The notes beneath the pieces are model-generated. The model was not told where the DNA came from and did no database searches. It was given only the letters and a program-made list of their open reading frames with translations. This document shows, piece by piece, positions 27,001-45,605 of a stretch of 64,000 nucleotides of DNA (position 1 is the first letter of the stretch; each line of letters begins with the position of its first letter). Where the stretch lies: positions 434,001-498,000 of the forward strand of contig BQMF02000208.1 in NCBI GenBank assembly GCA_027922465.2, in the 5' to 3' direction. The DNA comes from Turritopsis dohrnii. Lineage: Eukaryota > Cnidaria > Hydrozoa > Anthoathecata > Oceaniidae. Position numbers and translations under genes: made by a program.

Positions 27001-30000
27001 CAGACGTACCAGTGGACCAATGGCAGACCACTTACATTTACCAACTGGATTAACAAGCAGCCTGATCCTAGAATCGGTCCGTATGTTAAGCTTACCATGA
27101 AGGAAGGTGCTAATCAATATATGTATTGGACAGCTGCAACAGGAAATGAAACTTTGCCATTCTTCTGCCGGAAAAGAAAAGGTACTTGTAATTTATGTAA
27201 TGGAAGCATTTGGATTCTGGTAGTCCAAATTCTCACTATTATTCTGCCAATAGAATCCAAATGCTTCATGTAACAAAATAATCAGAGGTTTTACGTTCAC
27301 TGTTAGCAGTGAACGTAAAACCTCTGATGTGTATGACGAACCTTTGCCTTCATTTCATGACAAAAAAAAAAATAAGTAAGGGCTATAAGTAGTCTTATTT
27401 ACAAAATTTTCATTCGTAGCAATATGTCGTAAATGTTCAAAATAAGCATTAGTATTAATTTATAGACTTTCATTAGGTCACATTTAAATGAATTCCTATT
27501 AAGCACGACTACAGTCATTACATCGAAAACGTTTTCTATGTTGCGTTCAATTTTGTCTCTTACTTTTAAAGTTTGTTTTCCTTTGTAGTACACGCCACCG
27601 AAGCTCCTATTGCCACTACACCCAGTAAGTCCATCCATTATTCTTTAAGACTTAGTTCTCATTGTGAATCTATAAACCATGAAGTGTGGGTCTAACATAA
27701 ACTTTTATCACACGGCATTGCTGATAAACAAATCAAAGTCAAAATATCAAAGCTCACTTATTATTTTTATCCAAACAAAATTAAGACAAGAAACAACATA
27801 AGATAAACATACATATTAAATAGGTCTTCTTGTAAACTAAGCACCACTCAATTCAAATTGATGAAAACTTAAAATTCTTGAAAATATTTTCCTCAGAACC
27901 AACTGGGAATTGCAGTTATCCGTGGAAAAAAATACTTAACAACTGCTACTATCTGAACAAGGAAAGGTAATGTACCTAATTTTCCAATAAAAATTTGGTT
28001 GTGATAGACATTGAGTTCTTTATTGTCACATTTCTGTTCAATTGCAGAATGTCCTTTCCAGATGCTCAGCAAGCATGCTCACGAATGGGTAAAGATGCAA
28101 ATTTAGTATCTTTGCATTCACTGGATGAAAATGATCGGGTATTTCAAGTAATCTCAAACGAAACGCTGTATTTCTCTTGGATTGGCTTATCTAATGAGGG
28201 TACTGTTAATGGCAAGTGCTTCTTGTTATCAATCACATTGCTTTTGTTTTTTTATTTAAAGGGTTTTTAAGGACCTGAAGCTGTTGAATGTAGATGACTG
28301 TAAATTACAAATTGTAAAAGCATTTTGAAGGAGTGCAGTTTCTATAGAAATATTCATATTATTTCCATAAAAATGCCCTTCATTGTAGTGGCTTTATGAC
28401 GATTTTGCCTACTGGGTCATATACCAGTCTTATTATCTAAATATTTGTTATCTTATTGTTTAATACGAATAGGAACGTTGACAGTTTTCTCAAATATCAA
28501 TAATTGGTTTTTAAAAGAATATTATATTGAGGTCAATGTCATTACTTTGACACCTTTTGTGTGGCAGGTTTTACTTGGGTTGATGGAACACCTATATCAT
28601 TCATTAATTGGGACACGAACCGCCCTCATACTGGCTTGCGACACTTGTGCGGTGGGATGACGTCTGGTGGGAAATGGATGGATTTGGCATGTTATTCTAA
28701 ATATCCATCTTTATGTAAGGCACCTCTTGGTAAGTTGATTCGGTTAACAGTACTGAACAAAAGTCATTTAGAATAGAAAAGGAAAGAGTAAGTTCTAGTC
28801 GTCAACAACAGTTTTTTTATTTCTGCAGTTCATATCTTTGTGTTGTCACAATCACAAGTCAATTTCTTTTACATTTTCACATTTTTTTTCTTACTAGGAA
28901 GCACTTATGAACCAACGACAACCAGTCCACCTGAAGTGACAACAACTCAAAGTTAGTTTCATTCCTGTCAGTCACAATGAGTTAAGAACTCACAAGATTT
29001 GATTCTAAAAAATACCCATATTTTTTTTTTTGTTTACAGACCCATCACTTTGTGGATCCTCGGATTGGACTTATTTTAACAACAGTTGCTACTATTTTTC
29101 AAATTCTACTGGTCTAGATTGGCATAAAGCCAAACAAGCTTGTCATATGAAAAATGACAGCCATCTCGTTAGTATACACAATGATAAGGAAAATGAATTC
29201 ATCAAAAATGAAATCAAAAGGTATATCACCCTAATAATGTATTCCATATGAATTTTTTCAGATTTAAAATTTATATTTTTTTAAATTTTTGGTAGCATCC
29301 AAAAGTTTTTAATATCCTTTTTGTATCGTAGAAGGTATGCCTATAACAAAAATGTCCTTATTGGTTTAAATGACATCTCAACCGAAAGTGGATGGAGTTG
29401 GGAAGATGGCTCGGTTTTCCAATATGTCAACTTTGATGATGATCAGCCTGACAACTGGCATGGAATGGAAGACTGTGGTGAAATTCGTCAGAATGGGAAA
29501 TGGAATGATTTATCTTGTAATATTCGTCTGCCATTCATTTGTAAGAAGAATAAAGGTACAGTATTTTGAAAGAATAATGGTGTGCATGTAAAAAATAATT
29601 TCATTGCGAAAAACTATATAGAAGTTATATCATTTAAATGCATAAAAAGAACATAGGAAATTGTGTTTAGTATGGTTGCTCTTTAAATTTAGCTAAATTT
29701 CCTGGAGTACTGCAATAGGTGATTTAAGATTTAATCGTCTCAATCAAGCATCCTTAGTTTTTTTTTGTTTTTTTTTTGTTTGTTTGTTTGGATTTTTTTT
29801 TTTTTTTAAATCACTCACCCCACTCAAGGCCGAAGCCACTACAAGGAGTGGGGCTACATAGTCCGGATGGTCATCACAGCGTTAATCTCCCCGACTAGCC
29901 TTCATTTTCCCCAAAATACATCAGGGAATCGAGCTAGTTGCAGTACCTCCAGGAGTCGTGACTTTTTCAACACCCGACCTCAGCGGGGTTTGAACCCTCA

Positions 30001-33000
30001 ATATTGGGTTCCTAAGCTCAATGCTTTAACCACTAAGCCACTACACTAACATTTCTAAATAAGAATTATTTGTAATTCTAATCACCACCCAGCTTGTTTT
30101 ATAATTGTTTTGGTTTATGCTTTCCGTTTTACTGTTTTAGGTCAGACAGAGTTTCATAACACCACAACAGCACCACCAGGTAGAGCTACTAACACTTATC
30201 AATTGTGAGGATGATCTGATGACAAACATTTTAATTGTTTTGCATAGTTATTAAGGTTTGAATGTTTTAGTTGGGAAATGCATTAAAAATCAATTTATGA
30301 AAAACGAAAAATTCTTAACGTCATCACTAGATAATGCCAACAGAAAAAGGATATTTTAGTTTTGCTTTAGGTTTTTATCAAATCTGCAAAACATTTCATC
30401 AGGCCGATTTCCATTCAACGCTTATGCCCGCGCGAACGTAGAATTTTCCAAACAGCTGCAAATGGAAATTAATAGACACGACTGGCTGAAAATATCAGCG
30501 GACGTCGACGGGCTTAAAAAAAGTTAAAATTTTTTAACTTTATTTTTGATCGCTGAGTGGACATATCTACGCTTATGAATTAGCCAATGGCAAAGCGTTC
30601 TACGTCACTCAGCGTGGATTACCTATGCCTTAAGGAAATCGGCCTTAAATCATTTCAAACTTTTCAACTTTTTTTTTTATCAAAGTAAAAGTTGGAAATG
30701 TTTTGTGTGTGTTTCCATCCAACATTTCATTTCTAAGTGTTGTAAAGAATGCAAAACATTTAATGGAGTGCGGATTTCAAATGCTAGAATAATAAGATAT
30801 TTTCAATTACACCAAAACTTTACAAGCAAAAAAGAAAAAAGAGGAAGATAAATGATTGCATGTATTCAAACTGATTAACTCTAATAACTTTGCTTCCGCT
30901 CCACTTCATCCAAATTCTTGCTTTCCAGTTATGTGGCCTTTCATTGTCTGAATTCAATAATTCTGAAAAATCACCTAATGCTATGAAATCACACTATTTT
31001 GCCATATTGGACGGTCAGTGCTGGATTGTGTGTACAAATGACTGCCCGATGTGACAATATTTGGAAAATTTTGGATTTTCTTTGTTTCACCTTAATTTAT
31101 AATAAGCAGAATGAATGTGTATGTATTTCAATTGTTCATTGATCATCTGAGAATAATAAATTATCATTTTCGCATCTCTTTTCATTTCCTTTAGATACTG
31201 GCTATTGCAAACCTGGTTGGAAACTGTATGGTCGCAAATGTTATTTGTTTATGCTTGGTACTGAAGAGCTTCGAAATTTCAAAGGTGCAACGTCCTACTG
31301 CAGGCAATGGGCTGGTGGTGACCTTGTATCCATACATCACAAGTAAGTGAACGTTTAGATATTTTTTTGGACTTAGATCTTCAAAAACCAACACACACTA
31401 CAAAACTCATTCAAAACATTTCTACATTCATCAATCTTTCCAATTGTTGATATCTTCATATTTCAATTGTGTTATGATAACAATAATATTGGCATTCAAA
31501 CCCTGTTAAAAATGTTGTTATATTTTTGCAACAATATTTAACAAACCTTAGGTTTAATATTATAGGAGAACCCTGATAATTTTTTTTGTTGTTGTTTTAT
31601 TTTATTACATTATTCAAATAACATTTCATCAGTTGCTATCAAAATTCATTGTACATCTCATTTGCTTTACCCTTTATGGACCTATGAAGAACATTATTTA
31701 CCTTCAAGACATTTGCCTGTTGTCAAACTTATTTGAATGTTTTATGTTTATAGAAGAAAACATTGTAAATTTCTTTTTGTTTAGCTATGAAAACGCTTTT
31801 ATCGTCAGTCAATTAGCTGGCGTGACAAGTTCTGTTTACATTGGTCTTTCTGACAAGCAAGTAGAGAGAAGGTTTTTATGGAACGATCAAAGTTCAGTTG
31901 ATTACACAAATTGGCATTACTACCAGCCAAGTCGTTATGGTGATGAAGATTGCGTGGAACTGTTACCTTTTTACAAGTACCGTGGTCGCTGGAATGACAT
32001 CAATTGCAAAAAAAAAACTGGATTTGTTTGTCAGCTAGGTAATTTAAGATTGATACGTGCAGAATTTTGTATTTTACCAATCATGTCAATCATGTTTGAA
32101 CAGAAAAGCAATGTGGTTTCGTCAATTCACATGTATACAATGTATACAATGTGATGCTCTATGACATTTTGTTTACAAGTAATGCAATAATCTGAAAAGA
32201 CATATGCATATACAACTCTATTGAAAGAAAGTCATCCATTTGGTTTATGCAGGGTTTTACCAGTGACATCACCAAGAATGTCACAGTATAGTTTACATCT
32301 GTTCGTGGTAGAATTGTATAATACATAGAAATTTCTTTTTAGCATCGACAGCAACTAAACCTACAGGAACACCTGTGACAACAAAAGGTATTCATCACAA
32401 TTTTTATATTTTCTTTTGTCAGCTCTGTTCATGTTTTCGAAAATAAAAACATCTCACTTTTAATTTCTATATTAGCACCCTCCGACCCTTGTCCAACTAA
32501 TTACAAGAAATTTCAATCTTCGTGTTACCGAAGTTTTGTACAAGCACAGAGTTGGTCTGATGCCCAAAAAACTTGTGAAAAAGATTTTGGCAATCTGTTA
32601 TCAATCCATGATTTGTATGAACAAGGTGATTTCTTGCTATCAGTTCTATCAAGGCCAATTATAATAATTAGAAGAATTGGAAGTAGAATTAGAATTAGAA
32701 TCGGCAGTTAAATCGATGTTTCTTACATAAATGCATAAAAAACAACATTCTTTCCACCCTTGCAATTGTTGTTTCTGTTGGCTGGCTACAAATGGCTAGC
32801 AGTAACGAAACTACTTTCTTTGCAGTTTAAGTGAAGTACTTAATGATGTAATCTTCATAGAACTTACTTCGTTTAAACATGGTGTTCATGCCTAGTAATC
32901 AAACTTATAAACTTATAATTCTTATAGTAATAATAATAATAATAAATAATAATAATCATTTATTTGGATATCCATATGTACAATGGTTCTTCATCCTATG

Positions 33001-36000
33001 TTTACAACAAAAAAGGTTCAATAATTTAATATATTCTAAAAAGTTAAATGCAATGTTAAAAAGAGAATACTGTGTGTCCAAGCAATAATTATCCATATAG
33101 GAGTAGTGAAAAGATAACTATTCCTAGGAGTCGCAGTAGAGTAAGTTTGAATAAAACCTTATAAAAATATATACATATATATATACAGAAAAAAGGGGAG
33201 AGTGATTGTTGAAAGTAAATCAAAAGTAAAAGTGAAATAACACAATGTGTTCAAGAAAAAAAAAAAAAAAAAAAAAATTAAATTAAATTAAAAAAAATTA
33301 AGATTAAATGGCATCAAAAGCATGGGCTGAATGTCAGGTGCAATTAAGAAATTTTGCATTAGATTTATCTATATAATATTTTTTTGATTCAATATTAAAA
33401 CTTCGAGCTTCAGTAATTTTTCTCACATTGAGTGGTAGATCATTATAGTGGTGGCTCATAATACTTGAAAATGATTTCTCGTGTGGGCCAGGTTCAATTG
33501 AAAATTCGTTATTTTCTTGATTACGAAGAGTTCTTCTTGGTTTTTTTAAGTTCGTAACGAGATACTTCGGCCACATACTGTCATAAACCGACTTGAATGC
33601 CAGCTTTGAAGACGAGAAAGCTACCCTTTCGTCAAAAGGTAACCAGTTGAGTTGGACTACGTCTCGAGTACTGCAAAATCTGTTGTACACATAGCCAGCT
33701 GAACTGTTTATTAGTTTTTGAATCCGTTTACTTTGGTATTGCTGCAGATTGTTGCCATAGACAGTAATGGCATAATCAACTTTTGAAAGAATTAGTGCTT
33801 CGATCAAATTTTTCCTCAGATTAAAGTTGGTCATTCTTTTTATTCGTCTTAAGGTTCGAAGAGTACTGTAAGATGTTTTTAGTAACTCGTTTATGTGATC
33901 ATTCCATTTGAGGTTCTCTTGAATGGTAACGCCGAGAAGCTTCATTGAACTCACCCTTTCCAGCACTTTGCCATTGTTACTGATGACAAGTTTTTGTTCT
34001 TCGTTAAGATTGTGACGCCGTGACATTTCGTTAGTAGACAATAACATTATTTTTGTTTTCTTAGCGTTAAAAATCAAGTTACTTTGTTTTGACCATTGAC
34101 CAATTGACGTTATATCATTTTCCAGGTCCTTGGCACATTGTTCAATCTGGTTTGCTTTACAGGATCTGTAAAATGTCGAGTCGTCAGCAAATTGTACTGT
34201 TGAACTTTTGGTATTTTCAGCTAGGTCATACACGTATAAATTAAACAGTGTTGGGCCCAAGATGCTCCCTTGGGGGACTCCGAAATTTACATAGCGTAGT
34301 TCAGATTTCTTGTCGTCAATTTGAACAAATTGTTGACGATCTGAAAGATAGTCAATGATTAGAAAGATAGTCAATGATTAGAAACAAGATTCGTAAAAAT
34401 GCGACTATTAATTTCCCCAAAGTTGCAGAATTTTATTAATTATTGTGTGTACATTGATAACCGTAACAAAAATGCATCATTAAAATATGCAAATAATTAC
34501 AATGGTATAACTACTGATATAAAAATGCTGTCCATAAATCAGGCTGGAAAATGAAGATGTTCATGGTCAAATGATCAGGTTTCTTGATTTTTTTACAGAG
34601 GAATTAAAAAGTGACTGAGAAGTTACTATGGACTTATCTAAAAATTATAAGACCTAAATGTGAACCTTAATTAACTGAATACTTTCTTTGCAGAACACAT
34701 CAATAACCACATCAATGTGTAAGCCAATTTCTTCATAATAAAAATATGATCTTAATTCTTGCAGAAACCTTACAAGTTTCCTAATCCTTTATAAAATCAC
34801 GGGAAAATGTAATTAAACGGAACACTTGCTTTTTTGTAACTCGGATAAAATTATCTTACAACATTATACAATCAGGTTTACAAAAAAAAAAAGAAAATTG
34901 TCAAACTTAATTCTAATACTATGTACAGTATATATAGTGTTAAAAATACTTTGGGGTAGACTAGGTGTAGACTTTTGAATTACAAAGAAAAGAGTAAATT
35001 TTTCAAAATAGAGAAGGAATTAGAATGACAATTTATAAACTAAATTCAAGTATTCAGAATAAACATCTCTGATTAAAAAAATACATTCATTAACATTGTA
35101 TGTGAGCAGTTATTGTTATGTACTCTTTGAATTAACGTAACTGGTTGTTCTCCACTTGAAAGAGTTTCCTATCCTTCATATGGCTGGTACATTATAATGT
35201 AGGGCTACATTATACCAGGTGTCAGGATATAAAATAAAAATAAATCTTCAGCTTGGCTTTTAATTATGAACATTCCACTTTGCACTGAAATCACAGGTAT
35301 TGAACCTGTCAATTTTCCTTACAAACAACGAACGTAAATCAAAACACATTCCAACATAAACATTCTGAGAATTAAATCAAGCCAGAAACAGTGGGTGTAT
35401 AAAAAATGGCGTATTACTGCACTGAAGACTAGCCTCTATTCTTATCTACCTTGGCTAGGGGAAAATTCGATACTGAGCTGCAGCTATAAAAGTGAACAGA
35501 GAAGAAGAAGAAGGAAACTGCCGATTTTAACATATATTTCGCCCTATGGGGAAATATATAAAAAACGTTCATTGACATAAAATTCTGATGTTATACAGTT
35601 TTTCAGTCAAATTGCAAGAGCATTTCATTTTGTGTCTTTTTTATAATTTTTTGTTTGGTCATATTTAAGATATGAATGAGCCAATTCTACAATTTTATTT
35701 TCTCTACCCGACTTCATATAAACACTTTTTTTGGCAATTCAACTCCCCTCAAAATTTGAAGCAATTTCCGGAGGGCAAACAAAAGGTCATAGCCTGCAAG
35801 ATTCAAGATATTTCGATGAAAGCCATACGCTGTATAAACACTGTATAAAGTATTCCATGTTCATTAAAGTAATTCCACCAAATTCATCAAATTAAAAGTT
35901 GCTACTGAAGCCACATACATTTTGAAACTCTATAGTAAACAACAATTAAACAAGTTTTTATTTAATTGTTTAAGGTTGTTTAGGATGAAATCAAAAATAA

Positions 36001-39000
36001 AATCAGCTGTTTATCTAAAAGTGTACTACTTTCTTTATTTTGTCCATTTCAGCATTTGTGTTTAGTCAAATGGCCGAGGTAGGATTTGAATCATGGATTG
36101 GTTTAAAAGGAAACAACCGAGTCTTTAAAATTTGGTCTGACAACTCCACTGTTGACTTCAAGCATTGGTTGTCATACAGTCGAGGTTACAATCAGAATTG
36201 TGTAAAGCAGGTGTTTTCAAACACTGTTGATGGAAAATGGAAGACTAGCGAATGTTCTAACAAGTTGCCGTTCATTTGTAAAATATCAAAGAAAGAACCG
36301 AAAGTGGACCCTCCATTTATTGGTAATTGCACATCTGGATGGACCAAATTTGGAAAAATGTGTTACAAGGTGTTTTCTGAGTCCTATTCTCGGGAAAGTT
36401 GGCCAGGTGCCCGTGAAAAGTGTAAAGGTTATGGTGGCGACTTAGTGAAGGTTTCTAGTAAAGCTGTCCAAAAGCAACTTCAATATTTGATTCGAAATAC
36501 ATGGGAAGCCGTTTGGATAGGTACAGTACTGTTTCCATTTGTTAGTTTTTATAACTTAAGTTGGATTTTTACGAATTATTTACTTAAGGGACTGTTTATA
36601 TTATGTTTATCATGCTCCATTCACTTCATCTATGTGAAGATAAGCGACTTATCAGAATGTACCACCTTTGAACAGTGTGACTAATGGTCACCTGACTTCA
36701 GAAAACACATGAGCTTTCTTATGTGTTTTTTCTTATGATTATGAATTTCCTACATAGATCAGTTGGATCAGTAAAAATGAATGGATTCATGAATTGAATA
36801 GGCATATGTGTTTGTGTTATACATGTTGCCGTGAGGAAAGATTAATTGGATGTTTGTCCGAAGAACTGAGTTCTTTATTGGAGAGAAATTTTGTTGTTAT
36901 GATTGCTAAATTCATTTAATTTGGTTTCTCAATTCATCTAATTTCATTCATTTAAAATGAAACTGAAGTGAAACAAAATTCCATAAGAAATTAGAAAAAC
37001 CTTGCCTTCAATGAAATTGCCTTTGCGAACATTTATTGGGAAAAGACCATCTTATCTGCATTGGGAAGACAGTTTTTCGTTTTGCATTAGCTAGCACTGT
37101 GATGGTAAAGTTCCAATTCATGTTCTACAGGTTTGAATGACAGACAGGAAGAGCATACATTTACTTGGAGTGATGGCTCGCCTCTTGTAGCTTGGATAAA
37201 TTGGAATGAGAATGAACCTAACGACAATTCAGGCAAAGAAAACTGTGTGGAACTCGCATCAACCACAGGAAAATGGAACGACATCAGTTGTGTCAGATTG
37301 CTTCCGTATATCTGTGAGCATCCTCTTGGTGAGCATTCATTAAATATCTGGTTTCAGGTTTCACATACTACCATGACAAAAGGGCTTCTTTTCTAGACAT
37401 ACTATGAATGAAAAAGCTAATTTCCTTTTAAAAGAAGAGTCACTAAAACTTTACTTGATGTTAAGAAGAATTTAGTTATATTTGATTATATTAGTTGTAA
37501 AGGTCTGCATCGTTGCCTAGATACATCCATGTAAACCAATGAAAAGAATGTTACTTCCTACCTTCCAGATTGTCGCGATCGTCTTGGCATGGAAAACATG
37601 CAGATTCCAGATGAAAACATCAATGCCTCATCATATATTTATCCATACTTTCCAAGAAATGCGAGGCTAAACAAGAAAGTAGATGGCAGGCCTAGCGCAT
37701 GGTGCACAAACAACACAGATGCCAACCAATTCCTACAGGTGAAATTTGTTCTTGACGCCAACCCAGTGGACAAAAGTCACTCTGAAGGAGTACATTTCTA
37801 TAGGAATTATACATACTGTTTCATTGAAAGTGCTTGTCATCGCAGTGACGTTTTTTGACGAGTTTACCCATTGTGAAATCGTATATGGTCTGACCTTTTC
37901 GACGGAATTTGTTAAGATGAGATTGGACTCCATTATGACCTATTGCAATTGCTGAAGTAATGTTTTATTTTTCTAGATCTATTTGGGAGAACTGACGACT
38001 ATCACAAGAATCAACACACAAGGACTGTTCCATTCACACAATTATGTGATATCGTACAGGCTTGACTATTCCATAGACGGTGTAAACTGGATGCATTACT
38101 CAGAATACGATGACACTGGAAGGGCTTCCACAAGGGTAATGTTTGTTTGTTTATTTGTTTGTTTGTTTGTTTGTTTGTTTGTTTCAAGAGCCATTCCAAC
38201 CATTCCTAAAAAGCTGAACGTCTCCAAACGAGAATGAACGTTTTTGTGTAAATTGCATTTCATTTTCTTTTATAGTATCCCAGTTACAAGAAATAAACTT
38301 AGTGATTTCGGCTTTAGAACTTTTTCGAAACTCTTTTTAGATTCTTCCCGGAAATCGATTCAGTTCATCTGTAGAAGGAACGACCCTCAATGTAAAAGCT
38401 GTTTATATACGAATTATCCCTGTTAAATACAAAGGGAAGATGAAGTGCATGAGACTAGAACTGTTTGGCTGTAAAGCAGGTAGGAACTTTTAACTGTTGC
38501 TCCAAGGGTAGCATATTGATTGCCAGAACGGGAAATGTTTTTTTTTTTTTTCTACACCTGATAGTGTCATGCCAGCGCGTCTTTGACAGCATGAATTCAT
38601 CCATCAGCTTAATACTCTGCGTGACAGCCGCATTGATGTTTGAGTGAGCTTTCTGTTTGAGTTGCTTAAGCATCCCTCCAATTTCCGTTACCCAAATGGG
38701 GCCGAGCTCGCACAACGCTCATTGGTTAAACATAATTGATAATAATAACAAAAGTCACTTTAGTGAACCTTACTCTTAACCTAGTATATATTGCTTTGCG
38801 TTATGTGACTGCCCTGTGCATAATATCACCTTTAACATTTATTCTTACAGTGTGTTCTAAAGCTCTTGGAATGGGTAACTTTGCAATTCCTACGAACAGA
38901 TTAAAAGCATCATCGGGCGTTGCTGAGAACGCCCGTCCAAGTGTAACAACTCCCTGGTGTCCGAAGGTAACTGTTTTCCTTTTCTTATTCTCCAAGTCCG

Positions 39001-42000
39001 CCCTAGTCGTTGATTATGCTTGTTATCCCAAAAACGTTCCAACAATCATCTTTTTTTGTTATAAAAAGGCACACATAAATATACATACCATTTCAATCGT
39101 CAATCGTGATTACATCCGTAGCCGTGTTTCTAATTTTAAAAATCATTGCTTACTCAAGTTTCATAATAGAATTTCGAAGTTTTCCGAAGTCGACGTAAAT
39201 TATTGTAGAGGTCTATTGAGTATTACTAACGCCCTTCGTTGCTTGATAGGATTCGAGAATATTTACCTAACGTTATGTTTTTAATATTAAGATTTTAATT
39301 TGACTAGAGTGACTTTAAATCTTCATTTTCCATACATCATCGTTGTTTAAATTGGTGGGCGTTATTTTCATACGATACGGGTGGTTAGGCGGTAAATGTT
39401 AAACGCCAATGAAGGTTTGATATAGGAAAATCAGCAGCATCTCGGGTTTTTTTATACCTTTCTTTAAATGGTATGTGTTTCACGTTTCGCTAAGGAACCG
39501 AATCCATGGTATCAGATCGACCTCCAGCGGACCATGAAAGTCACGCGCGTCTCAGCATCGGGCACCGGCTTCAAAGGGTTTGAACTACTATTTAGTGATG
39601 ATGCTAAAATCTGGAAGAAAAGTGTAACGCTTCAAGGGACGGATAAGGTGAGTAAGATTATGATGAGGAACCGCTGTGCTATAAAAATATTGCTCCAGAG
39701 CTGGTCATTAATACAGCAAAGGTCTAAAAGAAATATTCTGGGCAAGGGGAGGAAAGATTGACTCTATAAATCGGATTGTCTTGCAAGATGCAATCATGCT
39801 GAATCGTCACCATGTTTTGGTTGAAAGTCTCATGTTTCGAAAGAACGAGAGATTACGAAAAACTGTAACCCTAAGAGATTACGAAAAACTCTAACCCTAA
39901 CCCTAACCCATATCTTCGTTAGAGAGAACAAGACATTACCCCCAAAAATGTGCTCGCTCAACCCAGACAAAAATAAGAAAGTTTTGAGGAAAGATTTTCT
40001 GATCAAAAACATATAGAACCTGTTGAAAAGTTTTATTGAGCTTACTACGTTACTAGGTTTAGGTTCATGCTGGTTGATTCATTGCATGTCGTTGTTTTTG
40101 TCAAAAAGTAATTGAAAAATTTTTCTATTAATACTTCAGTTTCCGTATCATTGTTTATTGGGAATTTTTGATTATGTTTTCCTGTAGTTCTTTCCCGCAT
40201 CGTCCAGCACACACGACCTGGAAGTTGCTGAACATTCTCGCTATGTGAAATTCGTAATTTCGCCAACGAAAATGCCATGTTTAAAGTTTGAAGTATATGG
40301 TTGCACTTACGGTGAGTCTTTCATCATCGTCAGGTAATGAAAATAGGGACTCTACGTTGACGGTGACGCCTTAATGACGGTGAAGTCTTAATACAAGAGG
40401 AAGAAGAGGGAAAAGAGATGAAACAAACTCTTTATTATCAATCAATTAACGTTTGTATCGCTTTTCCCGTTTCGTGGTTTTCGGTATTCCGTTTCGTGAC
40501 TTTCGGTATTTTGTTTCGTGGTTTTCGGTATTTCTTTTATATACGGACAAAACCTATGTATCACGATCTCCACTCTAAGAAACATGGGTGGTGGCGGCGG
40601 TCATACACAGGTGGCCGTTTTAGCGGCTTGGACTTCAAAAAAATGCAGAATGGTTACGTGTGAGTACTTGACTTTTTTTCTTCAGAATGCGATGATGAGA
40701 TGGGTATGCAGTCAAAGCTGATTACAGATTCTATGATCAGTGCTTCATCCCACCAGAAATCATATCAACCTTCTAAAGCACGTCTCAATCAGAATGGTGG
40801 CTGGTGCGCTAAAAATATTGACAAGAGTCAATTCCTACAGGTGTGTTTTGTGGAATTCCTGTCTAGTGCGCATGTTTTAACTGTTTCGCCAAGCTGAATT
40901 GAACTCACTGAGACAATCAGTGACAGAACTTGTTCAGTTTGGTTTGCTGAAACGCATTCACGAACACACCCCATTTTACACTAGACGAACTGATCTCATC
41001 TTAGTCTAGTCGAGCTGACCACATCTTAGTCTAAACGATCTTTGAGTTCAATGTTTAGCACAAAGTATTTAACGAAACCGAACCACGCGATGAAATGCGT
41101 ATGGAAGAAAACGGTGGCTAACCAGTGATATTCTTCCGATTTTTTTTAACGGGTTTTTATTCAATTTCTCGGATGTATCGCCTTATGAGGAGTGTTAAGT
41201 TCAGGACTCCACGTGACGAGTTCTCTTGTTTTCACAGTCTTACCAGCATCATCAAGATAAAATTATATTTACTTCCACCTAGATCGACTTCCAAGCGAAT
41301 GCTCACGTGACAGCAATAGCTACGCAGGGCGTGATTGACACGAACGCCATCGAAAATTACGTCATGCATTATTACTTGCAATGGAGCGCCGATGGAGAGT
41401 TTTGGCATTTCGTACCTAAGTTGGTAGGTTTTAATTGTTTCACTTGGAGAAAAAAAATGAATAGTGAATGATGAAGATAGAACGTTTTGATGAAGTGGAA
41501 AGGTGTGAAGAAATTATTCTGTTCAAATTTTGTTTTCCTTCATGGAAAATATTTTGTCAGTTAAACCAAGAAGTGTTTGGTAGATGTTTGAAGAAAGTAA
41601 ATTTTCCAACCTTTTTATGAATGAAAAGCTAGAAAGAACCAAGTCTGCATTCTTTAGAACTCTTTATTTCAGTATCTTTGCTGGTTTTTTCTTTCATTTA
41701 CATTGGGAATGTTTATCGTCTAATAATACAATCCCATGGAACTACATTCCGGTTTTGTAGAAAAAAGGACTTTGATGCCAGTAAACGACCGGACCCCAAC
41801 TATTGGTTCCAACTATTTCTATGTCAATTCCACCTCCTGAACAACGAGTAGTTATTTGAAAGAGACGGGGGTTAGGTATATATGGAAAAGTGTCAATAAC
41901 CATTCGTCAGAAAACAAACGCGACTTTTGTCGTCTTTATCATAAAAATGTATAATCTTTATATTCATAACCAGTGAGCGAATTTTTTGAAAAATCACTGC

Positions 42001-45000
42001 GAAGGAATGCATTTTTGTACAAATTTACACACTGTTTCAATAAGATTGCTCTTCATCGCAGTGACTTTTTTGACGATTTTTGCCCACTGGGTATTAGTTG
42101 ATATTTCCTTCATTTATAATATGATAATCTTCTAATCTTCTGTCCTGGTAATAATCTTTTGTGTTAGCGGTTGATGTTATTGGTTTTTTTCTTTTCCAGC
42201 TTCCTGGTAATTCAGATGGTACATCAATCCAGAAGTTACACTTGGACCGACCTATATCTGCTCGGTATTTGCGTATCAATCCGATCGATTTCAAGAATGA
42301 CATTTGCATGAGGGTGGAACTGTATGGCTGTCCGTTAGGTCCGATTCTGTCCTTTTTCTTCAGTGTTTATCGTTAATTAGAGTCAATTTAGTCTTGCGGA
42401 ACTTAACTAATTAAAAAGGTGCATGCGCATTAAGGTGTAAGGCTATTAAAGATAATTGACAGTTATAGATAGAACTAAGGACTGAGTTCTGCTGATGTCA
42501 GCAGATCACTCATTAGAATAATAAGAAATAGGTCTGGAACTAGGCACTGACAAATATCAAAATGGCGCGCAAACGAGGTTGCTGACTTTACTCACAACCT
42601 TTATAGTAGTTCTTTCTCTTTTTTTTTTTTTTTTTTGCATAATTATGACTACATATGTCTCTTTAGAAAAAATCATTCCGACCGAAAGACCTAGCCGAAA
42701 ATATCCGGTTTCAATCCGGTTAACAGGCAGACAGTACACACCAGACTTGGCATCTCCTGGCAGTAAAGGTTTCACAGCTCTAGCAGAGCTAGTGAGTAGC
42801 GCTGTAAGTATTGTATGAGCACGTGTGAACACGCCAGTATTTCTTTGTAGTGTTCTCTTCTCCGCTTGTCTCTATGTTTCTGGTTACCGGACTTATCCCC
42901 AATGTTCCCCTAGGAAGTCTCCGACGAGATTTTTTAGTTTAAAACGTTTTCTTTGTTTACGTAAAGTTAGCTGAGATCAGAAATTAAGTATGCGACTATT
43001 ATACAATATTCTCCTGAGTTTTTTTGAGATGCTAAAGCGAATCATGGAGGTTCGAAAACTGAAAGAAACTCTCGTCTTTGTATTTTTTAAACAATGACAC
43101 TTTCCTTACACAAATATAGAGACAAGTTTACTATTTTTGATTCAACAAAGTTTTTGGACTTTTTTAGTCATTATCGAGATATACTTTCCTCCTCATTTCG
43201 ACATTTCTGTCATGTCATCCGTGATGACATGTCTTCCGTGATGACATGATAAAACGAAAACCTGAAACTAACGGCAATTTTGAAACTGAATGCCAACCAT
43301 TATGAACAAATTTGATATATAGTGTCAGGCGGGACCATACGATCCAATGCCTAGCCATGACATTGACTCCTCTAACAATCTGAACCGTCAGTACACATTG
43401 AAAGGCCGTTATATGGTATGATCATCTTTTGTGTTTTCCTCAAGGTGACCGATGTTTTTGTTAACAATGCTGGTTTTAAAGATGGTTTCAAGGAAGTCGA
43501 GATAACTGGCTTTAGGTAAGTCAGTGATAAATAATGCAACATTTGTTTTATAAGTGTTTTTTGATAAAAATGAAGACTCAGTTCGGTAGTTAAAATATAC
43601 TTCAGAGACTATTTCTGTGAGAGGTTCAGTAAAGATTAGTCCCATCTTAAGGACTTTTTAAGCAGTCCTCGTTTGATTTTAGATCAATTATCGAATTGTA
43701 GTGATGTTTAAAATCATTGGGCGTTTTTTCTGATGATTTTGTTATTTAGGCCTGGTAGTGTTATTGCCGATGTTTCGCTTACATTTTATGAGTTGGGCGG
43801 TGACGATCCCTTACGCCCACTCGAAGACGCTGTTCAAACTGGCAAGCTTGGGAACTTAACAGTTGATAAGAAATTTGTTACGGGCGGTAAGACTTTTATG
43901 CAGTGCATCTGGATTATTGAGAGCAAGGCGTATATGTGATGGAGATAAGAGGGAATACCATGATTGGATCATTACGTAGTGCCATTGTAACGCCCGGCGA
44001 GGGTATTTCAGTTTTATTAGTGAAACAAATTGTGATTCTCATGTGAGATGAAGGAAACTCCACATGTCCTCTGAATGTGTGAGTACAGTAGAACAACAGA
44101 ACATTAAGAGCTAGGGCGTTTGTGTATAAATCAACTGGTACCTTCACTAAATCATCTGTCTCGTGCAGGCTCGAGGAAGAAGAGTGTTCTGTAATCATTT
44201 TTGCTCGGAAAGTTGTCTTTCCAGTATTTCTTTTGTTCAAGCAACTAGTATCATTTTAACTTGCTTTAAACCATCCTATAAATGAAATCCACCGGTAACC
44301 GAGAAATCATGAACAGATTCGTGTTATGTTCTCTGCAAAACCATTGGTATGCGTTCCCACAGCAACACGCTTCGGTTGATTAAACTAGTGACGTCATTGT
44401 TTTTACTTTTTAGATAACACAAGCAAGAAACAAACAGGTCAGCTTTTTATCTGATTTTCTGGTCTGTTTTTTTTTATATTCAAAACGACTCTGAAATTCG
44501 CCTGAAATGATCGTTCGGTAGATTACCGTGAGTAAAGTGATAAGAAAAACATCAAAATACACTCTATGGTCACACGAGCAGACATAAATAAAATAAAATA
44601 AGTCCTCTTAAGGTTGACCAGCGTTCGGGTTTAGTTCGGTTCCGTCAACTGACTTCACATTTTGCAAGGAATCATCATCATAATAATTGAGAGGAGGAAC
44701 TATCAATTGCTTCAAGTTGCACCTATGCCAATGCTCAGTCAGCCGATGGCTCTAGCTACTCTGAGCTACTGCAGTGCTGTGACCCAAAGACGGATGGCAA
44801 GGCACTGACCACTGCACTATCGTTAAACAAGATGTTAATTACATCATTTGCCTGATATCTCATAGGTTAAGCAAGATATTAATTACATCATTTGCCTGTT
44901 ATCTCATAGGTTAAGCAAGATGTTAATTACATCATTTGCCTGATATCTCATAGGTTAAACAAGATGTTAATTACATCATTTGTCTGATATCTCATAGGTT

Positions 45001-45605
45001 AAGCAAGATGTTAATTACATCATTTGTCTGATATCTCATAGGTTAAGCAAGATGTTAATTACATCATTTGCCTGATATCTCATAGGTTAAGCAAGATGTT
45101 AATTACATCATTTGCCTGTTATCTCATAGGTTAAGCAAGATGTTAATTACATCATTTGCCTGATATCTCATAGGTTAAGCAAGATGTTAATTACATCATT
45201 TGCCTGATATCTCATAGGTTAAGCAAGATGTTAATTACATCATTTGCCTGATATCTCATAGGTTAAACAAGATGTTAATTATATCATTTGTCTGTTATCT
45301 CATAGGTTAAGCAAGATGTTAATTACATCATTTGTCTGATATCTCATAGGTTAAGCAAGATGTTAATTGCATCATTTGTCTGATATCTCATAGGCTCAAG
45401 CGGTTTATCAAGTGCTGCCAAAGTCGGTCTGATCATTTTCTTCGTGTTGGTCGTTGCTATTATCATCATTGTGGGCATCATCTATTTCAAACGACAACGA
45501 GGCGGTTTCAATATGAAATTCAAGTCGTTTTCCAACCCAGTGCACATGCGCGCTTCAGTGGATGACGACATGGATGTTCAATTCATGAACGAAGAAAACA
45601 ATTAG
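9260..45605 (+). CDS. Giant multi-domain lectin receptor: 11 C-type lectin domains, 4 discoidin, LamG-like, SUEL lectin, SEA, TM
   Basis: I resolved about 50 exons. The splice phases agree at every junction and the total is 8,211 nt (2,736 codons plus stop), which argues that the chain is right. The product should enter the secretory pathway (MSLWKAVIVVSTLLTI) and sit in the membrane by one C-terminal helix. The ectodomain is built of carbohydrate- or ligand-binding modules, so surface binding of glycans or microbes, phagocytosis or adhesion are reasonable roles by analogy with mannose-receptor-type proteins. That is inference. Most module borders are phase 1, as in proteins built by exon shuffling. 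At least five introns hold one MITE family, and others carry a Helitron, a SINE and a LINE piece. The modules are listed separately. The least certain parts are the first two exons, the start of the LamG exon and a possible extra exon at 43329-43415. Annotation pipelines could split this locus into several genes. Confidence 0.85.
10187..10702. mobile_element. Foldback element with internal short tandem repeats (intron 1)
   Basis: The left end ataaaacatgaaccgaccag, then aacccagcagg and ccaccaagaaccgacc, is matched by the complement on the right (ggttctggtcggttcttggt ... ggttcatgttttat). Inside are repeats of the type accctaaaatcaaaagtgag and gggacccaggacc. The arms could form a stem of over 60 bp with mismatches. 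It is non-coding; the class is unknown. Confidence 0.7.
12117..12729 (+). CDS. Lectin gene exons 3-4: CTLD1 (EPN)
   Basis: Exons 12117-12353 and 12526-12729 make one C-type lectin domain: CQKGWIRNGEFCYLF, then LGGNLLSLADKIES, HYWIGLNDIKKEG, the sugar-site motif GEPNN, KWNDNAC and the final FICKR cysteine. EPN plus WND is the classic calcium-dependent mannose/GlcNAc/fucose-type site, so this domain is likely to bind sugar. Confidence 0.85.
13357..13410 (+). CDS. Lectin gene exon 5: Pro/Thr linker
   Basis: This 54-nt exon between atttag and gtaagt encodes DDPTPAPPTLPPFPNATI when read with its phase-1 borders. It is a flexible proline-rich spacer, probably O-glycosylated, with one possible N-glycosylation site (NAT). 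Confidence 0.7.
13423..13790. repeat. Paired inverted-repeat elements with GGGGAAAAGTGAC motifs (intron 5)
   Basis: taccttaccggggaaaaaaa at the left is answered by tttttttcccgataaggta near 13566. A second, similar block with repeated ggggaaaagtgact runs to about 13790. Related phrases occur at 53695-53780. It looks like a mobile element present as a pair. Confidence 0.55.
14243..14742 (+). CDS. Lectin gene exons 6-7: CTLD2 (EPS)
   Basis: Exons 14243-14427 and 14526-14742 join in phase 0. Features seen: CEAGWIPWGTSCYGI, TWQDARSDCLRRFGDLVVIE, EFWIGLSDQSIEGQFNWVNG, NNEPSND, GEDCVELYGKW, KWNDNHC and YICEK. The sugar-site motif is EPS with an intact WND, so calcium/sugar binding is plausible. Confidence 0.85.
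15010..15474 (+). CDS. Lectin gene exon 8: CTLD3 (single exon, no EPN/QPD)
   Basis: One exon encodes the whole domain: NCPEGWKWYGDYCYQI, SWNESRSYCLDF, ADLVSINSEDEEKML, FWTGLNSLNSRKEFEWSD and ACKIKRG. The EPN/QPD position reads NWKTSFSKNG and there is no WND, so the usual calcium site seems lost. The fold is probably kept for protein contacts or structure. It is unlike its neighbours, which are split by introns. Confidence 0.8.
15687..16715 (+). CDS. Lectin gene exons 9-11: discoidin (F5/8 type C) domain 1
   Basis: Exons 15687-15856, 16226-16390 and 16562-16715 have phases 1-0-0-1. The domain starts CYSPLGMQNFDVPDSSIT, continues LDGAWCAANGTK, WLQINFGSPQKMTYMGLQG and FYLRYSLDGISWSTY, and ends YVRIYPLTWKEACCMRVEFY. 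Discoidin domains bind glycans or phospholipids through surface loops. Confidence 0.85.
16902..18063 (+). CDS. Lectin gene exons 12-14: CTLD4 (no canonical sugar motif)
   Basis: Exons 16902-16994, 17634-17855 and 17971-18063. Seen: CGVGWNEDPVSKNCYKF, TSWDAAQSICAAQGADLISI, FWSGLNDLDDEGIFRWKD, NWYKDSPKKN, NCVAIRASDGFWKDEDC and NFACK. The motif position is SPK and WND is replaced by WKDED, so sugar binding is doubtful. Intron 12 carries a Helitron (17131-17580). Confidence 0.8.
17131..17580 (+). mobile_element. Non-autonomous Helitron in intron 12
   Basis: It begins TCTATATATTAATAGCCG after an A and ends with the hairpin gccaccttggcgg followed by CTAG, before a T. That is the Helitron pattern: 5' TC, a 3' hairpin then CTRR, inserted between A and T. 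It shares its start and end with the copies at 62332 and 63172. It has no coding capacity. Confidence 0.85.
18335..18454 (+). mobile_element. CCCAGTG-family MITE, copy 2 (intron 14)
   Basis: It matches copy 1 through agtgctagggagtgcattcc, tttcaataaaaatgctcttt, cgtgactttttgacgatttt and gcccac. The 5' end is more diverged (tccaggggggaattttg). Confidence 0.7.
18621..19406 (+). CDS. Lectin gene exons 15-16: LamG/pentraxin-like domain
   Basis: Exons 18621-19119 and 19234-19406 (phase 2 junction) encode a concanavalin-A-like beta-sandwich of about 220 residues: YWAFDDVRNNTIFG, GMFFKGGDSYVTLPYIE, GITVSFRFKSSS, GFYVSIVHGRIKTFIQT, WNHFACTWSVNSGLRVYING, ELFVGRSQDT and LMALVVYEKVLTSEEITFLY. The pattern is that of LamG-like domains; its ligand cannot be told. 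The open frame extends 5' of the exon, but the acceptor ctatgtttag at 18611-18620 fits phase 1 and the start of the domain. Confidence 0.8.
20155..20706. mobile_element. Terminal-inverted-repeat element (intron 16), possible relic ORF
   Basis: Left ttttccaatgataattttcc is the complement of right ggaaaattatcattggaaag. Inside is a short frame starting MESEEEIAAAVIFCQKE (from about 20251) that stops after about 30 codons, and a direct repeat of aagctcactttcttgtttcg-type sequence near 20370-20455. This looks like a deleted DNA transposon. The PIF/Harbinger class is only a guess. Confidence 0.5.
20935..21462 (+). CDS. Lectin gene exons 17-18: CTLD5 (EPN)
   Basis: Exons 20935-21126 and 21268-21462. 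Seen: CQWGTIPLGSYCYEF, NWADASKYCKDNGGHLMSVH, IWIGLNSKQENHLYSWTD, NAYEPNNW, REDCVHTW, MWNDNLC and FVCKYK. EPN plus WND predicts a mannose-type site. Confidence 0.85.
22020..22682 (+). CDS. Lectin gene exons 19-20: linker and rhamnose-binding (SUEL) lectin domain
   Basis: A 21-nt exon (22020-22040, AYKGETE, donor gttagt) precedes exon 22404-22682. The latter holds a galactose/rhamnose-binding lectin domain of the sea-urchin-egg-lectin type: IRIINARYGSTKYNC, QCFGSKCADIVASDRFF, KTNPCIG and AIYLNYTC, with the expected cysteine spacing. The usual YGR and DPC motifs read YGS and NPC, so rhamnose specificity may be altered. The domain is clear; the micro-exon is less sure. Confidence 0.75.
23317..24002. 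mobile_element. Long inverted-repeat element, GAGGTTCGG family, with internal tandem repeats (intron 20)
   Basis: The ends are gagattcggaattcccgag and ctcgggaattctgaacctc. The flanks attttaaca (23308-23316) and attttaaca (24003-24011) are an exact 9-bp target duplication. The inside holds loosely repeated blocks around gaaaattgttcaattctaat and gaaggtcaacttgtg. No protein is recognisable. It is the longer relative of 3954-4119. Confidence 0.8.
24053..24170 (-). mobile_element. CCCAGTG-family MITE, copy 3 (intron 20, inverted)
   Basis: It reads in the opposite orientation: gtcgtcaaaagtcactgtga, then aaagaaatgcactccttcac, agtgatttttcaacatattt and gcccactggg at 24161-24170. Confidence 0.75.
24275..27181 (+). 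CDS. Lectin gene exons 21-22: CTLD6 (QPD, degenerate)
   Basis: Exons 24275-24428 and 26913-27181 join in phase 2 across a 2.5-kb intron. Seen: CPNGYSVFIQNNICYKL, TFAEAQKVCKADNADLLSIH, IWMGLKYDELNQTYQWTNG and NKQPDPRIG. QPD would suggest galactose, but the two inner cysteines and WND are missing: the region reads PYVKLTMKEG and YWTAATGNET before FFCRK. This domain has probably lost calcium-dependent sugar binding. Confidence 0.8.
25245..25330 (-). repeat. tRNA-derived SINE-like or pseudo-tRNA remnant (intron 21)
   Basis: Read on the minus strand it contains taacttagtggctagagcg (A-box-like) and gtttcaagtccc (B-box-like), spaced as in a tRNA. It has neither a good acceptor stem nor a clear tail. 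A short relic is likely. Confidence 0.4.
27203..27328. repeat. Two adjacent hairpins in intron 22
   Basis: The first stem pairs gaagcatttggattct (27203 on) with agaatccaaatgcttc (to 27268). The second, at 27281-27328, is a perfect 22-bp stem (atcagaggttttacgttcac plus tg) with loop ttag. The function is unknown; both lie just downstream of the exon 22 donor. Confidence 0.75.
27589..27624 (+). CDS. Lectin gene exon 23: Thr/Pro linker
   Basis: This 36-nt exon between ctttgtag and gtaagt encodes VHATEAPIATTP with phase-1 borders. It is a short spacer between CTLD6 and CTLD7. Confidence 0.6.
27897..28729 (+). CDS. Lectin gene exons 24-26: CTLD7 (GC-AG intron)
   Basis: Exons 27897-27966, 28048-28211 and 28568-28729. 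Seen: CSYPWKKILNNCYYL, MSFPDAQQACSRMG, ANLVSLHSLDEND, FSWIGLSNEGTVNGFTWVDG, INWDTNRPHTG, KWMDLACYSKYPSLCK. The sugar motif is replaced by RPH, and WND reads WMD. The second intron has a GC donor (G|gcaagt); using it gives the same spacing from WIGL to W-x-DG as CTLD2. Confidence 0.8.
28321..28417 (+). mobile_element. CCCAGTG-family MITE, copy 4 (intron 25)
   Basis: It shows ttgaaggagtgcagtttcta, tttccataaaaatgcccttc, gtagtggctttatgacgatt and tgcctactggg. The 5' end is eroded. Confidence 0.65.
28898..28951 (+). CDS. Lectin gene exon 27: Thr/Pro linker
   Basis: This 54-nt exon between ttactag and gttagt encodes GSTYEPTTTSPPEVTTTQ. It is a mucin-like spacer with many possible O-glycosylation sites. 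Confidence 0.65.
29040..29555 (+). CDS. Lectin gene exons 28-29: CTLD8 (QPD)
   Basis: Exons 29040-29220 and 29332-29555 join in phase 2. Seen: CGSSDWTYFNNSCYYF, WHKAKQACHMKNDSHLVSIH, VLIGLNDISTESGWSWEDG, DDQPDNW, MEDCGEIRQNGKWNDLSC and FICKK. QPD plus WND is the galactose-type signature, so this is the likeliest galactose/GalNAc site in the protein. Confidence 0.85.
29757..30052 (-). mobile_element. tRNA-derived SINE (intron 29)
   Basis: On the minus strand it starts near tagtgtagtggcttagtggt (A box) and carries gagggttcaaaccccgc (B box), about 60 bp into the element. It then has a body of about 190 bp and an A-rich tail, seen on the plus strand as the T tract 29757-29807. This is the layout of a tRNA-headed SINE. 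Confidence 0.75.
30141..30179 (+). CDS. Lectin gene exon 30: Thr/Pro linker
   Basis: This 39-nt exon between tgttttag and gtagag encodes GQTEFHNTTTAPP with phase-1 borders. It is a spacer between CTLD8 and CTLD9. Confidence 0.6.
30401..30646. mobile_element. Small TIR element (intron 30)
   Basis: It begins aggccgatttcc and ends with the complement ggaaatcggcct, about 245 bp apart. It is GC-richer than its surroundings and non-coding. The inside carries acgtag/ctacg-type inverted pieces (gcgttctacgtcactcagcg). A MITE is likely. Confidence 0.6.
31195..32038 (+). CDS. Lectin gene exons 31-32: CTLD9 (QPS)
   Basis: Exons 31195-31342 and 31785-32038 join in phase 2. Seen: CKPGWKLYGRKCYLF, FKGATSYCRQWAGGDLVSIH, YENAFIVSQLAG, VYIGLSDKQVERRFLWND, YYQPSRYGDEDCVEL, RWNDINC and GFVCQL. 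QPS with an intact WND: sugar binding is possible, specificity uncertain. Confidence 0.85.
32343..32387 (+). CDS. Lectin gene exon 33: Thr/Pro linker
   Basis: This 45-nt exon between ctttttag and gtattc encodes ASTATKPTGTPVTTK. It is a mucin-like spacer with phase-1 borders. Confidence 0.65.
32476..36520 (+). CDS. Lectin gene exons 34-35: CTLD10 and first half of CTLD11
   Basis: Exon 34 (32476-32625) holds CPTNYKKFQSSCYRS, SWSDAQKTCEKDFGNLLSIH and DLYEQ. After a 3.4-kb intron with a LINE piece, exon 35 (36053-36520) continues AFVFSQMAEV, SWIGLKGNNRVFKIW and KLPFICK. It then runs without a break through linker KKEPKVDPPFIG into CTLD11 (CTSGWTKFGKMCYKV, GDLVKVSS, AVWIG). CTLD10 lacks EPN/QPD (HWLSYSRGYNQN) and WND (WKTSEC), so it is probably not a sugar binder. 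Confidence 0.8.
33250..34384 (-). mobile_element. 5'-truncated LINE in intron 34, RT ORF 33334-34374
   Basis: A 346-codon open frame on the minus strand encodes the C-terminal part of a non-LTR reverse transcriptase: GVPQGSILGPTLFNLYVYDL, then the catalytic VQFADDSTFY, then MKLLGVTIQENLKWNDHI and the typical C-terminal LRTLRRIKRM and WLPFDERV regions. The endonuclease and N-terminal RT are absent. There is no stop in the frame, so insertion is fairly recent. The 5' edge has a short direct repeat (agatagtcaatgattagaa twice, 34344-34382). An A/T tract at 33256-33300 lies beyond the stop. A CR1/L2-like clade is likely but not proven. Confidence 0.8.
37131..37328 (+). CDS. Lectin gene exon 36: second half of CTLD11 (EPN)
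   Basis: It continues CTLD11 with GLNDRQEEHTFTWSDGSP, NENEPNDNSGKENCVEL, KWNDISC and YICEHPL. EPN plus WND predicts a mannose-type sugar site. This is the last CTLD before the discoidin block. Confidence 0.85.
37569..38479 (+). CDS. Lectin gene exons 37-39: discoidin domain 2
   Basis: Exons 37569-37738, 37977-38135 and 38341-38479, phases 1-0-0-1. Seen: CRDRLGMENMQIPDENINAS, NARLNKKVDGRPSAWCTNN, NQFLQIYLGELTTITRINTQ, YRLDYSIDGVNWMHY and VYIRIIPVKYKGKMKCMRLE, then LFGC. This is the standard discoidin sandwich with its first and last cysteines. Confidence 0.85.
37761..37873 (+). mobile_element. CCCAGTG-family MITE, copy 5 (intron 37)
   Basis: cccagtggacaaaagtcact, then gaaggagtacatttctatag, gcagtgacgttttttgacga and gtttacccattg mark a diverged copy sitting just after the exon 37 donor. 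Confidence 0.65.
38140..38184. repeat. (TTTG)n microsatellite
   Basis: About eleven GTTT units in the first bases of intron 38. A simple repeat. Confidence 0.8.
38851..40311 (+). CDS. Lectin gene exons 40-42: discoidin domain 3
   Basis: Exons 38851-38966, 39495-39647 and 40188-40311, phases 1-0-0-1. Seen: CSKALGMGNFAIPTNRLKAS, VTTPWCPK, EPNPWYQIDLQRTMKVTRVS, FELLFSDDAKIWKKS, SRYVKFVISPTKMPCLKFEV and YGC. It is shorter than the other three discoidin domains. The telomere-like aaccctaaccctaaccc near 39895 is in intron 41. Confidence 0.8.
40686..42338 (+). CDS. Lectin gene exons 43-45: discoidin domain 4
   Basis: Exons 40686-40840, 41283-41423 and 42200-42338, phases 1-0-0-1. Seen: CDDEMGMQSKLITDSMISAS, GGWCAKNIDKSQFLQIDFQA, YYLQWSADGEFWHFV and ARYLRINPIDFKNDICMRVE, then LYGC. 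The last donor (G|gtccga) is weak. Confidence 0.85.
41969..42091 (+). mobile_element. CCCAGTG-family MITE, copy 6 (intron 44)
   Basis: accagtgagcgaattttttg, then actgcgaaggaatgcatttt, gcagtgacttttttgacgat and tttgcccactgg: a well-kept copy with both inverted ends. Confidence 0.75.
42667..43886 (+). CDS. Lectin gene exons 46-48: SEA domain
   Basis: Exons 42667-42803, 43445-43515 and 43750-43886 encode a SEA domain: YPVSIRLTGRQYTPDLASPG, FTALAELVSSA, VTDVFVNNAGF, EVEITGFRPGSVIADVSLTF, then a 40-residue C-terminal part. FRPG|SV is the self-cleavage signature known from MUC1-type SEA domains; an intron falls between R and P of that motif. A SEA domain just before the membrane helix is typical of mucin-like receptors and suggests a non-covalently held, sheddable ectodomain. 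An extra in-phase exon is possible at 43329-43415. Confidence 0.8.
44414..44437 (+). CDS. Lectin gene exon 49: juxtamembrane micro-exon
   Basis: This 24-nt exon between ctttttag and gtcagc encodes DNTSKKQT with phase-1 borders. It links the SEA domain to the transmembrane exon. Its size makes the call moderate, but skipping it keeps frame, so the model survives either way. Confidence 0.55.
44822..45393 (+). repeat. 13 x 44-bp tandem array of 3' splice sites (end of intron 49)
   Basis: Exactly 13 head-to-tail units of 44 bp (13 x 44 = 572). Each reads gttaa(g/a)caagatgttaat, then tacatcatttg(c/t)ctg(a/t), then tatctcatag, with a few single-base changes. The last AG (45392-45393) is the acceptor of exon 50, so each unit carries a copy of that acceptor and its pyrimidine region. 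The array is non-coding; every unit start contains TAA in the frame of exon 49. Confidence 0.95.
45394..45605 (+). CDS. Lectin gene exon 50: transmembrane helix and cytoplasmic tail
   Basis: It encodes GSSGLSSAAK, then the helix VGLIIFFVLVVAIIIIVGII, then the stop-transfer YFKRQRGG and a tail of about 35 residues ending MDVQFMNEENN and TAG. The tail has KSFSNPVH, close to the FxNPxY endocytosis motif but with H instead of Y, and an acidic VDDDMD cluster. Confidence 0.85.

Follow-up and report, generated by a model that had tools for sequence, protein, structure and literature searches.

The window analysed here, a stretch of 64,000 nucleotides from Turritopsis dohrnii, carries on its forward strand a large predicted receptor gene of the C-type-lectin/discoidin/SEA kind, and the last intron of this gene holds a tandem array of 44-bp units (Table 1). 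Exons were called with a home-made dynamic program trained on seeds chosen by eye in the same window, and in the final run 24 of the 38 seeds fell entirely within called exons; the splice consensus values of the first model, as well as the U1 5' end used below, were entered by hand. The predicted product comprises C-type lectin in 11 stretches, four F5/8C domains and one laminin-G-like domain, and after the SEA domain there follow one membrane helix and a short tail. With the exon that was read by eye the SEA domain reached E = 2.8e-13, compared to 5.7e-6 in the full predicted protein without this exon. Cnidarian sequences account for 12 of the 17 named matches to the C-terminal 578 residues of the receptor.

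Several further features were observed in the surroundings. Upstream lies a DNAJC9 gene, with its best named matches by E-value in Clytia hemisphaerica (58%), the shrew Sorex fumeus (49%) and Hydra vulgaris (52%) and other matches of up to 62%. An open frame at 33334-34374 on the opposite strand, within the receptor span, matches reverse transcriptase (E 7e-16), while overlapping open frames at 58341-60932 (+) with reverse-transcriptase and weak, sub-threshold tyrosine-recombinase-like matches look like a retrotransposon. Six telomere-like TAGGGT repeats are found inside the contig at 6473-6510, a 128-bp tandem repeat with similar units at 57456-58043 and at L007:5355-6220 is apparently a dispersed satellite, and tandem 18- and 9-bp repeats at 48910-49026 run through long open frames that are possibly low-complexity or collagen-like coding sequence, without a Pfam match in the two frames scanned.

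Table 1. Features of the receptor gene and of the array in its last intron (window coordinates).
Feature	Position	Strand	Basis or remark
Receptor gene span	~12 kb to 45.6 kb	+	home-made gene model
Upstream exons: C-type lectin, F5/8C and laminin-G-like domains, sub-threshold SUEL-lectin match	12002..42338	+	gene model and Pfam
Probable exon, SEA start (IIPTERPSRKYPVSIRL..LVSSA)	42667..42803	+	read by eye, acceptor provisional
Exon, SEA middle (..FKDGFKEVEITGFR)	43445..43515	+	gene model and Pfam
Exon, SEA second half (..PGSVIADVSLTFY..)	43750..43886	+	gene model and Pfam
Penultimate exon, 24 nt, linker DNTSKKQT	44414..44437	+	enters and leaves in phase 1; predicted
Array in register	44823-45394	+	572 bp = 13 x 44, head-to-tail, no indels
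Alternative exon starts	44866, 44910, 44954 ... 45350 (12 sites, steps of 44) and 45394	+	in-register units
Unit junctions AG/GTTAA(G/A), 12 candidate dual-specific sites (acceptor and weak donor)	44866..45355	+	sequence
Last coding exon: SSGL.. linker, membrane helix GLIIFFVLVVAIIIIVGIIYF, cytoplasmic tail with FSNPVHM	45394..45605	+	gene model and homologues
Junction to last acceptor: ACAAACAG-GCTCAAGC; k-mer ACAAACAGGCTCAAGCGG		+	predicted
Junction to any upstream acceptor: ACAAACAG-GTTAA; k-mers ACAAACAGGTTAAGCAAG and ACAAACAGGTTAAACAAG		+	predicted

C-termini were read for seven of 20 matches to the receptor, three of which (P0001, P0002 and P0008, whose entries show neither C-type lectin nor SEA domains) were not used. 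The remaining four homologues, P0010 to P0013 (27-37% identity), all end in a membrane helix and a tail, and the C-terminus encoded by the last exon is similar in P0010, P0011 and P0013. Together with the gene model these C-termini place the predicted boundary of the last coding exon, in support of the earlier note, which had taken the 13th AG of the array as the acceptor of the exon with the membrane helix. A SEA domain is precomputed for P0010 and P0013 and absent from the domain lists of P0011 and P0012. The penultimate exon was called at both exon penalties of the second model run and was absent from the stricter first run; the number 49 which it had been given depends on the gene model, the exon itself and its phase of 1 being recovered in the second run. 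It is one of several very short phase-1 linker exons which the gene model places between domains (the others at 22011-22040, 27589-27624 and 30141-30179), and these could be cassette exons altering spacer length.

The array was detected by TRF at 44822-45394 with a period of 44, 13.0 copies, 96% matches and 0% indels; it has the top score among the 42 TRF rows of the window, and no second TRF array is found at the locus. Aligned in register, the units show a mean pairwise identity of 0.960, and the 14 substitutions relative to the consensus are confined to six unit positions across the 13 units. Units 3, 6, 8, 9 and 10 are identical, units 5 and 12 are also identical to each other, and units 4 and 11 have variants in common over a distance, as in ordinary array turnover; from such variants common to non-adjacent units we infer that they spread by unequal exchange or slippage. 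The sequence tatctcatag, followed by g, closes all 13 units, so that the description from which this analysis started, 13 units of 44 bp each ending in tatctcatag with possible exon starts from 44866 to 45394 in steps of 44, was borne out by TRF and alignment and, for the exon starts, by the acceptor scan. Branch points follow a yUnAy rule, and a branch-like TTAAT motif lies in the last unit about 27-28 nt before the AG, free of the variant positions of the array; at this distance from each AG, TTAAT is a candidate branch point. The GC content of the array is 0.302, compared to 0.324 for the introns of the gene overall, 0.429 for the last exon and 0.410, close to that of the exon, for the part of the last intron upstream of the array.

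The strength of the repeated acceptors was assessed with a 23-base matrix based on the called acceptors of this gene other than the last, 46 in number. From 54 called acceptors and 54 called donors, 7 and 11, respectively, had been dropped as doubtful, leaving sets of 47 and 43. The 47 acceptors scored 7.59 +- 2.94 bits (leave-one-out) and the last acceptor at 45394 scored 5.87 bits, a value reached by 6.5% of 1114 other intronic AGs. Slightly below it, at 5.68 bits, are units 1, 3, 6, 8, 9 and 10, while units 4, 5 and 12 (6.77), 2 and 7 (7.60) and 11 (8.69) lie above. At least 5 bits were obtained for 13 of the 36 plus-strand AGs of the array, and none of the 22 AGs scored in the last intron outside the array, where AGs less than 40 nt from the intron's donor were omitted, exceeded 3.6 bits. 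Judged by the matrix, the upstream copies are putative acceptors of roughly the same quality as the real one. Since they are not clearly weaker, the acceptor itself would give the last site no advantage.

The consequences of upstream splicing follow from the reading frame. The penultimate exon ends in phase 1, and joining to an upstream unit reads ACA G/GT TAA, i.e. glycine and stop before the membrane helix. Translation over acceptors 1, 2 and 12 gave ...DNTSKKQTG-stop and over acceptor 13 the membrane form, and GTTAA likewise follows the AG at the remaining nine upstream acceptors, in agreement with the claim that each of the 12 would yield a single glycine and a stop. If the 24-nt exon is skipped and an upstream acceptor used, the end is ...VTGG-stop, and if the last intron is retained it is ...QTGQLFI-stop, four residues further on. 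As far as the frames predict, failures at the last intron give a soluble ectodomain. Because intron retention yields a soluble end as well, truncation is generic here and the stop does not point to design. A coding repeat was also considered and rejected, as 44 is not divisible by 3 and splicing enters a frame in which TAA follows immediately. An upstream-spliced mRNA would carry the membrane exon as 3'UTR. The earlier expectation that such transcripts escape nonsense-mediated decay stands for the exon-junction-dependent mode; decay is also triggered by long 3'UTRs, and this mode may still act.

With respect to origin, the unit was found in the assembly at this locus only. A 20-base unit core, allowing up to 3 mismatches, matched the window 12 times where 0.01 matches would be expected, and a 31-base core at the same tolerance gave 13 forward matches in the assembly of 435.9 Mb and 891 contigs, counts which may be lower bounds; all 13 lie within the array, no reverse match was found in the assembly, and the reversed control gave none. 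The array therefore looks locally born, and a dispersed repeat or satellite was rejected as its source, since the assembly holds no other copy of the 31-base core with up to 3 mismatches. A search with the whole array likewise returned one place. It is very unlikely, in our estimation, that the array, though real, has a true copy number other than 13 through allele choice or consensus error. Thirteen near-identical units would invite such an error, and the available part of PMC3087553 describes haplotypes of 6 and of 3 units alongside a version in the draft genome that is apparently misassembled; however, 573 bp would be short in relation to long reads, the array sits far from the ends of a contig of 701,849 bases, and its single copy in the assembly leaves none to compare. 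Among paralogues of the membrane exon none proved useful: a single weak match was found (E 0.005, 45% identity, query residues 1-51, locus L023), which from its translation looks like a fibronectin-type-III receptor and has no tandem repeats in the 3141 bases examined. With regard to the mRNA, none of 318 candidates for the 191-aa C-terminus of the receptor reached E 0.001.

To see the array among its neighbours, minisatellites with a period of at least 15, at least 3 copies and at least 100 bp were surveyed in 264 kb of its contig, i.e. the window and a further 200 kb. Minisatellites proved common, and of the 11 arrays found, the 44-bp array included, it has the most copies. Two of the other ten (L012 and L021:276-617) carry, on one strand, roughly one acceptor-like AG (at least 5 bits) for each unit, four have fewer (L021:9210-9824, window 57456-58043, L005 and window 10276-10431), and in the remaining four none was found at this threshold. 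Acceptor-like signals are thus repeated in other arrays and need no selection. That only two of ten carry about one per unit nevertheless counts against a neutral reading, and what distinguishes the 44-bp array is that it includes the predicted real acceptor and has the signal in all 13 units.

A function of the repeat as a DNA or RNA element unrelated to splice choice, such as clustered homeodomain-like sites (TTAATTA) or a recurring hairpin, we regard as extremely improbable. Homeodomains prefer TTAATTA-like sites, and TAATTA occurs 12 times in the array compared to 47 times in the whole window, but any 6-mer of the unit is repeated along with the unit. A small hairpin can form in some units, but the folds were not clearly better than those of shuffled sequences (z -1.38 to +0.43 for 4 of the 13 single units, -0.84 for a pair), and a hairpin function was rejected on these grounds. 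A compensatory change between unit positions 5 and 29, sought by eye, was rejected as well: both positions are changed in units 4 and 11, unit 1 is changed on one side, to a mismatch, and the changes are too few and not independent. A ribozyme or known RNA was set aside, the Rfam scan of the window returning no family at gathering score; a sub-threshold SNORD24 match (E 0.96) lies outside the array.

With acceptors of similar strength competing for one donor, the repeat number could set the ratio of membrane-bound to soluble receptor, any of the first 12 sites leading to a secreted ectodomain. This was one of two readings which the earlier note had offered, the other being a neutral expansion that is tolerated since splicing goes to the last site. 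The anatomy invites it, in that the 12 upstream sites are about as strong as the last and end in the same phase-1 glycine and stop with or without the 24-nt exon, and a rule of site choice can be cited in its favour: in Reed and Maniatis (1986), as described in the available part of PMC9225289, proximity favours the first of competing 3' splice sites under intron definition. Such a rule, or one of first come, would favour the first acceptor here and likewise counts against neutrality. As in those experiments, similar tandem acceptors compete for one donor; that source concerns in vitro assays, whereas the present locus is a natural, 13-fold case before a terminal exon. Despite these points we consider a ratio set in this way unlikely. 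In all four homologues the chain continues into the membrane helix, intron retention would give a soluble end too, and amphioxus arrays of this kind are reported, in the portions of PMC3087553 and PMC3902484 available, not to alter mRNAs. The last intron, at 956 nt, is one of 32 among the 50 called introns that are longer than 250 nt, and with so many long introns a cross-exon proximity rule would favour the last site; such a rule is described for 5' sites in the accessible text of PMC9225289, and by analogy the exon-proximal 3' site would be favoured under exon definition. The low GC content of the array compared to the last exon points the same way; this argument is weak, since the rest of the last intron is close to the exon in composition. 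It should be noted that the SEA domain could already allow shedding. SEA domains have a self-cleavage motif, and the domain adjoining the membrane helix (42667-43886) contains FRPGSVIADV, which resembles this motif and makes another route to a shed ectodomain, at the protein level, possible.

The 12 AG/GTTAA junctions, together with the AG/GC at the last border, invite a further model, in which an upstream acceptor would be used first, a CAG/GTTAAG donor would be recreated, and re-splicing would continue until AG/GC is reached, rendering early use self-correcting. AG/GT is present at 12 of 12 upstream borders, and duplexes of the regenerated donors with the U1 5' end come to -7.2 kcal/mol, with one bulged U, at 10 of the 12 junctions and to -5.6 kcal/mol at the other two, compared to -6.9 for the exon's own donor (from a duplex table that takes in 50 of the 54 donors called, among them doubtful ones). 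The available part of PMC10809524 describes human AGGT sites that can act as donor and acceptor, and in the polyubiquitin gene UBC a tandem array with AGGT at its unit borders. There, according to the same source, the units are coding, in frame and 228 nt long, with isoforms detected by RT-PCR; here they are intronic and 44 nt long, a length not divisible by 3, and the sites are candidates whose donor is weak. Drosophila recursive ratchet points, as far as PMC8605326 could be accessed, resemble the junctions in that an acceptor directly abuts a donor-like GT and differ in lying within long introns, in contrast to 12 such points within 572 bp with a poor donor. Against repeated re-splicing stands above all the donor itself. 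CAG/GTTAAG scores 4.96 bits compared to 7.17 +- 1.83 for the 43 called donors (12th percentile), and among intronic GTs given the same CAG 54% of 1358 score as high or higher, while 39% of 1341 intronic GTs pair with U1 as well or better. Matrix and duplex differ in how they rank the regenerated donor, and by neither is its signal better than background. In addition, seven of the ten other arrays contain AGGT on one strand, with 2 to 12 occurrences each. On the sequence evidence we treat stepwise re-splicing as possible but not favoured, and its probability as low. We are similarly doubtful of a combination in which repeat number would set secreted versus displayed lectin receptor and re-splicing via CAG/GTTAAG would provide partial rescue.

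The closest counterpart known to us from the literature covered are the amphioxus 'mirages', minisatellite-like duplications at intron/exon boundaries that vary in length and are reported, in the accessible portions of PMC3087553 and PMC3902484, not to disturb splicing. In both systems tandem repeats carry a splice acceptor at an intron/exon boundary (in BflGb6 at the 3' end of an intron), and many highly similar units contain AG/GT signals; here the boundary is the predicted start of the last coding exon, and all 13 units contain the signal, at 5.68-8.69 bits. The differences are that the host is a cnidarian, that the unit measures 44 bp compared to 150-160 bp in BflGb6 and 10-72 bp in Adh3, and that 13 copies are present in contrast to 3-6 in BflGb6, where haplotypes differ with 6 versus 3 units (PMC3087553, in the part available). 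Moreover, BflGb6 units include exon sequence, whereas the 44-bp unit contains the first exon base (G) only, the unit start GTTAAGC and the exon start GCTCAAGC being similar by eye; with at most one exon base inside, the array abuts the boundary rather than clearly spanning it. Use of an upstream site would here give a defined truncated protein. Repeats of this kind are not without effect everywhere, and in human paralogues tandem repeats are described to activate cryptic splice sites and so to alter splicing (PMC2812944, as far as accessible).

We propose as the probable explanation that the array is a local boundary minisatellite, a cnidarian counterpart of the mirages, whose last site is mainly used. 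A locally born minisatellite would have duplicated the last intron's 3' splice site, its units would have spread by unequal exchange or slippage, and the array would be tolerated because the copy beside the transmembrane exon still works. The last exon would be recognised as a whole, so that most transcripts use the acceptor at 45394, and the upstream copies would act as intron, with at most minor use leading to a soluble protein ending in ...KKQTG. A point against this explanation is that no AATAAA which could define the exon as a close poly(A) signal was found just behind it, the first one lying at 47883; the variants AGTAAA (45685) and TATAAA (45739) are present nearer downstream. The array itself, the comparable strength of its acceptors, its uniqueness in the assembly and the outcomes of the reading frame are direct observations; site choice by the spliceosome, exon definition and neutrality of the array are the steps which we infer. 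Of the two readings offered at the outset, the anatomy common to both was confirmed, and neutral expansion is the one we judge likeliest, leaving that proposal partly supported.

The locus suggests that boundary minisatellites of the amphioxus type also occur in cnidarians; we make no claim to a first case, the comparison covering open-licence literature. With 13 near-identical acceptors, one donor and one real exon, it constitutes a natural experiment on 3' splice site choice, in which the first AG, the nearest site and exon definition are the rules at stake. If only the last site is used, this would be an in vivo argument that acceptor strength and proximity yield to recognition of the terminal exon. 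If upstream sites are used, the number of repeats would alter how a lectin receptor is anchored.
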